This document shows positions 34,080 through 58,325 of a DNA stretch of 64,000 nucleotides, piece after piece. How positions within the stretch are numbered: the stretch's first letter is position 1; each line of letters begins with the position of its first letter. Made by a program: the position numbers and the translations under genes. The notes beneath the pieces were generated by a model, which had not been told where the DNA came from, ran no database searches, and worked only from the letters and a program-made list of their open reading frames with translations. Origin of the DNA: Marine Group II euryarchaeote MED-G35 (lineage in GTDB: Archaea > Thermoplasmatota > Poseidoniia > Poseidoniales > Thalassarchaeaceae). The stretch is from positions 66,534 through 130,533 of the forward strand of contig NTJS01000001.1 of assembly GCA_002457155.1 (NCBI GenBank), written 5' to 3'.

Positions 34080-34358
34080 CTAGCTGAAATGCTCGCTAAA
34101 CTCCCCCTCGCTCATTGCGTTCAGAGCCACCTTAGGCTCCATTCCTTCCACTCTAACTCGCATTGAAACGCATGTCCCCATCACTTCTCTGCAGCGTGCG
34201 TAAATTGACTTCCCAGTCAGACGGTCCTTCTGACCTTCCGCTATCTCCTTGACCTGATCCATCGTCAGGTTCTCCACAGAGGCTTCCCATGAACCGTTAC
34301 ACTTCTTCTTCCCCAGTGATTGGATGACTTTGTGGGGGGTTTCATTCCGTGCTGACAT
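34080..34358 (-). CDS. rpl11: Ribosomal protein L11, C-terminal domain only (N-terminal domain absent)
   Basis: 'TPHKVIQSLGKKKCNGSWEASVENLTMDQVKEIAEGQKDRLTGKSIYARCREVMGTCVSMRVRVEGMEP' matches the archaeal L11 linker and CTD. GAGGT RBS before the ATG and an in-frame TAA four codons further upstream. Confidence 0.85.
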   Translation of the reverse strand: MSARNETPHKVIQSLGKKKCNGSWEASVENLTMDQVKEIAEGQKDRLTGKSIYARCREVMGTCVSMRVRVEGMEPKVALNAMSEGEFSEHFS

Positions 34359-34441: not shown

Positions 34442-35311
34442 TCACTCCACCCTCTGAGTGACTCTCACTTGGTCGGCTCTAACAGTGAGTGCAACCGGTA
34501 CGGCGGCTTCGAACAACTCCACCGTCACCTCTTCCTTTGTCTCGGCAACTCTGGTTACCCGGGCTGCTTGTCCTCTGAATGCGCCTCCTGAGATCTCGAC
34601 TATGCAGCCCTCCTCGATTCCAGAGGTGGCTGCTTTCGGCTCTAGGTATGGCAGCACGTCTTCTAGAGGCGCCTCCCCGTCTAACACCTTGCTGCAGTTC
34701 TTTAGGGGGGTCACTCCTACCCCAACACGCCCGATCAACTTCTGGACATGATGCATCGCAGTAGCCTCGATGAAGATGAAGCCCTTCATGTAATGTGGGC
34801 TGAGTACCCCGAAGATCTTGTCTCGAATGTCCTTCAGAGAACCGGTTCCAGACAATCTTGCCCTAATTTCACTTGCTACGTTTTGTTCTTGGCCAATCGA
34901 AGTCTTGAGTATGTACAGGTAAGAAGCAACATCCCCATACATCTCCTTTAGTTGAGGTGTGGCGTAGTCTTTGTCCTGAATCTTACCAGGGTCGACCCAT
35001 TCGCTGTTCTTGTACAACGCACTTGGGCTGATTTCCGCCTCCTCGATAACGAAAAGTATCGGAGTCACGTCATTAAGACGATTCCCATAGGCAAGTCCCC
35101 TGGCCATCCCAGAGCGAACCAGACTCATCTTCTCAGAACTAATTCCCGTACACTCCGATACTCTTGATACGACAGAATCGTGATCACCAGGGTCGCCGAC
35201 TCCATAGATTCCATCCCATGCCCCCGGGAAGTCAGCAACCTCATCTGATCGCTGCATCAGTAGAACTTTCTCTCCGCTTCTGATATACACCGTATAAGCT
35301 TCTGACATCAT
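34442..35311 (-). CDS. spt5: Transcription elongation factor Spt5/NusG (NGN + KOW) with N-terminal degenerate Nudix-like domain
   Basis: N-term 'YTVYIRSGEKVLLMQRSDEVADFPGAWDGIYGVGDPGDHDSVVSRVSECTGISSEKMSLVRSG...ILFVIEEAEIS...EWVDPGKI' is Nudix-like; then 'SYLYILKTSIGQEQNVASEIRARL...YMKGFIFIEATAMHHVQKLI' (NGN) and 'IEEGCIVEISGGAFRGQAARVTRV' (KOW). GAGGTG RBS. Confidence 0.88.
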   Translation of the reverse strand: MMSEAYTVYIRSGEKVLLMQRSDEVADFPGAWDGIYGVGDPGDHDSVVSRVSECTGISSEKMSLVRSGMARGLAYGNRLNDVTPILFVIEEAEISPSALYKNSEWVDPGKIQDKDYATPQLKEMYGDVASYLYILKTSIGQEQNVASEIRARLSGTGSLKDIRDKIFGVLSPHYMKGFIFIEATAMHHVQKLIGRVGVGVTPLKNCSKVLDGEAPLEDVLPYLEPKAATSGIEEGCIVEISGGAFRGQAARVTRVAETKEEVTVELFEAAVPVALTVRADQVRVTQRVE

Positions 35312-35318
35312 TACCACC

Positions 35319-35603
35319 TCAGCCTATCAGCCATTTGAAGAATGGGGGGAAAACATTGACCATTAGAGCTAGGATGACGAAGCCAATCGCTCCTAACACA
35401 AACATCCCAATCCCACAAACTATCACGGTCTGTCTGAACTCTTGCTTCGAGGGCTTCTTTGCCATCTTGAGGATTCTGGCGTATGAACCAGTCTGAAGGC
35501 CCTTTACACGACCTTCAATCTCGTCCTGCCAGGACTGAGCAAGCTCTTCAATAGGACCTACCTTGGAATTCTCAACCGCCACGTTACCACCTAGAAGCAT
35601 CAC
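35319..35603 (-). CDS. secE: Preprotein translocase subunit SecE/Sec61-gamma
   Basis: Single C-terminal TM with 'KMAKKPSKQEFRQTVIVCGIGMFVLGAIGFVI'; conserved position upstream of spt5. Confidence 0.85.
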   Translation of the reverse strand: MMLLGGNVAVENSKVGPIEELAQSWQDEIEGRVKGLQTGSYARILKMAKKPSKQEFRQTVIVCGIGMFVLGAIGFVILALMVNVFPPFFKWLIG

Positions 35604-57872: not shown

Positions 57873-58325
57873 TTACTTGCGAAGTTGCTCGATGATTCTG
57901 AAGTGAGTTCCAGCCACCTGCTCCTGAGCAATATCCCCAATGTCTACCCAAGCGGCATCCACAGCATCATCACCGCCATGTGGGACAGATTCTGGATCAA
58001 CATCAACGAGGTAGAACAATCCAATGATGTGTTTCCTTGGGTCTCTGTCAGGTTCCCCATGGATTGCAAGAGCTACTGGGTTGCTTCCAATGACGCCGGT
58101 TTCCTCCTCGAGCTCGCGCAGCACTGCTCGCTCCGGATCTTCTCCGTATTCTACAAAACCCCCCGGGAATGCCCATTTCCCAAGCCAAATCTCTGGTTCA
58201 CCCCCTCGCCTGATTAACAAAGCCTCTACTCGCGAGTCAGTCTTTCTTAGAGCCACAGCATCTACTGCAACTGCAGGGTTGTTGTACCCATGGTGGCCAC
58301 ATTCATCGCATCGGTCACTCTCCAT
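57873..58325 (-). CDS. Nudix hydrolase (intact Nudix box)
   Basis: 'GGFVEYGEDPERAVLRELEEETGV' is a canonical Nudix box; N-terminal CxxC. Confidence 0.93.
   Translation of the reverse strand: MESDRCDECGHHGYNNPAVAVDAVALRKTDSRVEALLIRRGGEPEIWLGKWAFPGGFVEYGEDPERAVLRELEEETGVIGSNPVALAIHGEPDRDPRKHIIGLFYLVDVDPESVPHGGDDAVDAAWVDIGDIAQEQVAGTHFRIIEQLRK

Follow-up and report, generated by a model that had tools for sequence, protein, structure and literature searches.

Within the window, by which we mean the whole 64,000-nucleotide stretch of the Marine Group II euryarchaeote MED-G35 genome that was analysed, a gene for Spt5 occupies positions 34442..35308 of the minus strand and encodes a protein of 288 aa, in which a pseudo-Nudix domain stands ahead of the NGN and KOW domains. 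Its open reading frame runs from a GTG at 35317 to the stop at 34442, uninterrupted by any in-frame stop. Judged from conservation and spacing, the ATG at 35308 is the likeliest start, as it matches the MS(E/D)AF start conserved across relatives and lies 6 nt downstream of a Shine-Dalgarno-like GAGGTG (35315..35320, minus strand) that overlaps the SecE stop; the end at 35311 given in the original prediction corresponds to an ATG one codon ahead of this conserved start. SecE itself is immediately upstream (35319..35603, minus strand; named from its position and, by eye, from its sequence), and a gene for ribosomal protein L11 is found on the same strand at 34080..34358. Consequently, the SecE-Spt5-L11 context first proposed for this locus holds with regard to the neighbours, yet the L11 gene encodes only the C-terminal, rRNA-binding half of the protein (92 aa; PF00298, E 9.5e-9), with no match to L11_N.

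Both domains expected of an Spt5 are present, namely the RNAP-binding NGN domain (residues 131-193; 34730..34918, minus strand; PF03439, E 4.2e-10) and a KOW motif (residues 236-264; 34517..34603, minus strand; a weak PF00467 match of 14.2 bits), and the archaeal Spt5 model TIGR00405 spans the two (E 1.6e-30). The protein departs from the short two-domain architecture that is normal for archaeal Spt5 (approximately 150 aa, as previously stated; the Thermococcus kodakarensis and Pyrococcus furiosus chains are about 147 aa long), being 288 aa in length and possessing an additional folded domain. The placement of NGN by PF03439 and TIGR00405 leaves residues 1-129 as extra sequence, in line with the estimate of about 130 residues made beforehand.

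Several lines of evidence identify residues 1-129 (34922..35308, minus strand) as a Nudix domain. The AF2 model of this N-terminal domain (pLDDT 93.5, pTM 0.88) matched 390 PDB chains at E<=0.001 in Foldseek, and the best 50 of these were all Nudix-fold proteins (TMq 0.56-0.78). Among these 50 are NudI, MutT, Ap4A hydrolase, RppH, IPP isomerase, the C-terminal domains of MutY and the NrtR Nudix domain in complex with ADP-ribose (3gz8), the ligand that this repressor domain binds. A full-length model of the protein (pLDDT 82.6) matched both archaeal Spt5 and Nudix structures. Taken alone, the window's domain scores 15.4 bits (E 0.019), short of the PF00293 cut-off of 21.1, while 35 of 51 homologues match this family at E<=1, the best with an E of 2.2e-6. 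A profile of these 51 N-terminal domains, searched against the rest of the Thermoplasmatota, found open reading frames down to E 2.6e-17. Most of them encode standalone proteins, in which the Nudix box is intact and a DWEHxEYxW motif is present, and a representative of these belongs clearly to PF00293 (E 6.3e-16). Furthermore, hhalign aligned the N-domain profile with the standalone archaeal Nudix proteins over nearly the whole domain (probability 99.1, E 1.2e-18), and at the level of sequence profiles these comparisons establish homology between the Spt5 N-domain and a standalone archaeal Nudix hydrolase subfamily. The Nudix fold that had been predicted from the sequence is thus recovered in structure prediction, Foldseek and hhalign alike, where a model lacking that fold would have spoken against it. 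An origin from type 1 IPP isomerase, to which a weak match exists (TIGR02150, E 0.013), is not favoured, as the standalone Nudix profile gives a much stronger match, which spans almost the entire domain.

Two further observations concern Nudix domains elsewhere. The intact Nudix domain reported in the same window at 57873-58325 is indeed a canonical one (PF00293, E 3.1e-23, at 57885..58274, minus strand) and serves here for comparison only. In addition, members of the standalone subfamily also occur as the C-terminal part of proteins of approximately 260-300 aa (loci L173, L177, L181, L182 and L183), the N-terminal part of which resembles, by eye only, DUF126 (the aconitase-X small subunit).

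The Nudix box of the Spt5 domain is degenerate. In alignments it corresponds to residues 36-56 (GVGDPGDHDSVVSRVSECTGI; 35141..35203, minus strand), and against the consensus GX5EX7REUXEEXGU the first Glu falls in a two-residue deletion, the Glu of the RE pair is replaced by R49, and the EE pair reads E52 C53. We scored the catalytic positions in 94 distinct Poseidoniales N-domain sequences: the two-residue deletion takes in the first position, Arg occupies the second in 93/94 (acidic in 0/94), an acidic residue stands at the third in 90/94, and at the fourth only Cys, Ser, Ala or Val occur (acidic in 0/94). In the standalone relatives, E51, E54 and E55 are kept in 14/14 sequences and the first position is Glu or Asp in 13/14. 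The DWEH motif of the standalone enzymes is likewise lost in the Spt5 domain, where, on our reading of the alignment, an invariant Tyr takes the position of the His. The expectation that most catalytic positions would be replaced is therefore confirmed well beyond the single protein, with three of the four box glutamates that characterise a Nudix hydrolase lost across the 94 sequences; on this ground the domain reads as a pseudo-hydrolase. Loss of canonical catalysis is close to certain from these alignments, and the domain is in all probability a pseudoenzyme.

Other positions of the domain are strictly conserved. Residues R10, R20, W31-D32-G33, Y99, W104 and D106 are invariant, and R20, W31, G36 and W104 are invariant residues common to the active enzymes. 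By comparison with the standalone enzymes, R10, D32, Y99 and D106 are newly invariant, which suggests that the domain has acquired a new conserved surface or pocket. Within the genus, 29 unsaturated pairs give a median dN/dS of 0.067 in the N-domain and of 0.010 in NGN-KOW, and between families identity is 41% for the former versus 60% for the latter. Of 61 relatives, 51 have a Shine-Dalgarno-like motif (counted when at least 4 nt long) ahead of the N-terminal start, and none has one ahead of the internal Met before NGN. The alternative that translation begins near NGN, with a separate upstream ORF, which would have undermined the original prediction, consequently finds no support in the sequence; taken together with the absence of an in-frame stop and the strong constraint on the domain, we regard it as ruled out. 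The N-domain is selectively maintained, folded (by prediction) and fixed N-terminal to NGN-KOW in the regular Spt5 of the order.

This architecture extends throughout the Poseidoniales. Of 98 genomes sampled from the window's genus, family and order, 95 contained an Spt5 relative, which matched over its whole length in 90 and was a fragment in the remaining five, and the fusion occurs in all 19 of the Poseidoniales genera sampled. A contig collection yielded 242 relatives, the best 80 of which are titled Poseidoniales, Thalassarchaeaceae, Marine Group II or, unspecifically, Euryarchaeota or Thermoplasmatota. Outside the order the fusion was encountered neither in class or phylum surveys nor among these best 80 of 242 loci, and viral contigs contained no relatives of it; the survey of Spt5 architecture across the Thermoplasmatota that had been proposed thus returns an order-wide feature that was not found beyond the Poseidoniales. 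A local assembly or annotation artefact is ruled out, given that the same fusion recurs in numerous MAGs and single-cell genomes that were assembled independently.

In the sister family (f3, which we infer to be Marine Group III; the numbered Poseidoniales families would be the Thalassarchaeaceae and Poseidoniaceae), the extension is absent from the six members examined, and the family's other open frames are too short to hold it. Three genomes of one genus of this family (g22) encode a standalone relative of the domain with an E of about 1e-48, and the one member examined (L178) is catalytically intact. No standalone relative as close as this was seen in Poseidoniales genomes among the matches listed. 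Moreover, when the window's own genome was searched with the standalone-Nudix profile, the top match was the Spt5 domain (E 9.9e-14), with the canonical Nudix genes ranking behind it (next listed, E 2.8e-10). These patterns fit a scenario in which the stem lineage of the Poseidoniales would have acquired the domain by gene fusion, a gene capture followed by catalytic loss, the direction of which we infer.

Some variation within the order is also worth recording. In the other Poseidoniales family (f2; L046-L055, L080), NGN carries a conserved insertion of approximately nine residues, GGRDPxxRRG, which is missing from NGN in the window's family. One Poseidoniales bin contains a diverged Nudix-less Spt5-like protein of 157 aa beside a subtilase-like gene (L287, 171-644), which is either a diverged paralogue or a contaminant. 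In another bin (G048), a Nudix-less Spt5 is followed by L11 (L288, 2-987), and as this neighbouring L11 is full-length, the contig is most likely a contaminant from the sister lineage.

Extensions at the same place are found elsewhere in the phylum. Other Thermoplasmatota families possess an Spt5 N-terminal extension of approximately 130 aa that looks beta-rich (L117-L133, L136, L154-L156), with no Pfam family over cut-off in the two that were tested. No homology of these extensions to the Nudix domain was seen; the sequences look different and give no Nudix match. Two families additionally encode an extra NGN protein bearing N-terminal repeats (L134, G175:C19; L135, G238:C35), and those of L134, the one tested, match PF18780 HNH_repeat, a homing-endonuclease-associated type (E 2.3e-9). 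Given these differing extensions, the Spt5 N-terminus seems, from sequence comparison, to have acquired domains on more than one occasion.

The truncation of L11 constitutes a second unusual feature of the Spt5 operon, and it is also order-wide. L11_N (PF03946) was detected in none of 78 Poseidoniales genomes (including one that is a single contig), as against 10/11 genomes of the sister family and 14/14 control genomes. Of 149 genomes sampled across the phylum, L11_N is present in 108, none of which is from the Poseidoniales, while the 20 listed of the 41 negative genomes are all Poseidoniales. A dedicated L11_N profile likewise gave no significant match in eight well-assembled Poseidoniales genomes.

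What might a dead Nudix domain do on Spt5? Under selection as it is, the domain probably serves the transcription machinery as a docking or sensing element, and among putative roles we favour protein docking, followed by ligand sensing and then RNA binding. The core Spt4/5 machinery looks ordinary, since Spt4 is encoded in 86 of 89 genomes of the class (the window's genome included) and FttA, an archaeal relative of CPSF73, is present in 40/40 relatives; loss of Spt4 as an explanation for the extra domain is accordingly ruled out. In T. kodakarensis, NGN contacts RNAP and Spt4 and KOW contacts FttA (PMC11616081). In our proposal, NGN would still anchor the N-domain to the RNAP clamp together with Spt4, KOW would still recruit partners such as FttA or the ribosome, and the surface of the pseudo-Nudix domain, with its invariant residues, would bind one more protein, belonging to the elongation, termination or transcription-translation complex. 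As a folded domain ahead of an RNAP-bound NGN, it would ride the elongating polymerase. Non-catalytic protein docking is favoured because the domain lacks catalysis, is conserved and carries a net negative charge in all 94 sequences (median -10, never positive), although this acidity is only moderately unusual for the genome, the proteins of the window having a median charge of -5.2 per 129 aa. The negative charge and the loss of DWEH argue mildly against the reading of RNA 5' ends and for docking, and the occurrence of unrelated N-terminal domains at the same position of Spt5 across the Thermoplasmatota fits a modular docking site. We give docking as the main role approximately even chances.

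Further observations weigh against docking and lead to the alternatives. The invariant R20, W31, G36, W104 and Y99 (the former His position) would also fit ligand binding, and one catalytic Glu is retained (acidic in 90/94). The former would accord with a sensor in which the dead site binds ADP-ribose, NAD, NTP or an alarmone, such that Spt5 responds to metabolism, as would the newly invariant R10, D32, Y99 and D106 and the presence of ADP-ribose-bound NrtR among the fold matches. Precedents exist in human CFIm25, which is described as non-hydrolytic yet able to bind nucleotides (PMC3695940), and in euryarchaeal Nudix genes of the ADP-ribose type that adjoin the gene of elongation factor TFS, a hint of a link with transcription (PMC2643942). 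However, with DWEH and the metal site lost, such binding would have to be metal-free, and we consider a ligand sensor a real but lesser possibility. Its broader form, in which a former Nudix enzyme would respond to a nucleotide-type metabolite by adjusting transcription genome-wide, or the coupling of transcription to translation, across the order, is slightly more doubtful still. The retained Glu, along with the frequent aspartates at positions 39, 42 and 44, would speak for an active enzyme with a non-canonical set of catalytic residues, but at two of the three box positions that align no sequence has an acidic residue, Arg having replaced Glu at one of them, and the first box Glu falls in a deletion, making this very improbable.

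An RNA module similar to CFIm25 (NUDT21), binding nascent RNA near the exit channel and helping FttA to choose 3' ends, would draw on the RNA-binding CFIm25 of Entamoeba, in which three of the four Nudix glutamates are replaced by Lys (PMC3695940; here Glu is replaced by Arg), and on the joint action of FttA with Spt4/5 (PMC11616081). Against it stand the net acidity of all 94 domains and the fact that FttA interactions at the exit channel use KOW and not the N-terminus of NGN (PMC11616081), and we regard it as unlikely. Finally, the gain in Spt5 and the loss in L11 fall on one branch and in adjacent genes, which might suggest that the Spt5 domain compensates for the missing part of L11 by contacting the ribosomal stalk base during coupled translation. 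Yet a link between the two is unproven, as each is one event and a single branch carries no statistical weight; moreover, the folds are unrelated and Spt5 is not a stoichiometric ribosomal protein, so that compensation ranks as extremely improbable. Docking accordingly remains the reading that we prefer.

Spt5/NusG has been described as the sole transcription factor to be conserved throughout life, and its archaeal form as consisting of NGN and one KOW (PMC3382729, PMC11616081). No published fusion of Spt5/NusG with Nudix was found in the literature searched, a scope that excludes most subscription papers and all preprints, and Nudix goes unmentioned in a 2026 survey of the evolution of elongation-factor domains. 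What is new is the architecture of Spt5; the factor itself and the Nudix fold, here in pseudoenzyme form, are known. The Poseidoniales (Marine Group II) are very abundant ocean archaea, and a universal factor is altered across their whole order. A pseudoenzyme on Spt5 order-wide, together with other domains elsewhere, would make the N-terminus an evolvable regulatory port.

Compared with known systems, the Poseidoniales protein shares with archaeal Spt5 (TIGR00405) the NGN and KOW core, the SecE-Spt5-L11 operon and the Spt4 partner, and differs in its 129 additional N-terminal residues. The extensions of other Thermoplasmatota Spt5 proteins resemble it in length and in their place ahead of NGN, but are unrelated to Nudix in sequence. 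Standalone archaeal Nudix proteins of the DWEH type (133-180 aa) consist of the same domain, with R20, W31, G36, G55 and W104 in common, whereas the catalytic glutamates and DWEH are kept in them and lost in Spt5. CFIm25/NUDT21 is likewise a Nudix fold with missing box glutamates that belongs to a transcript-processing machine, although it is a separate eukaryotic protein with RNA-binding elements and is likened to the Spt5 domain by fold only; as a dead Nudix in transcript processing (mRNA 3' processing), it is nonetheless the best analogue.
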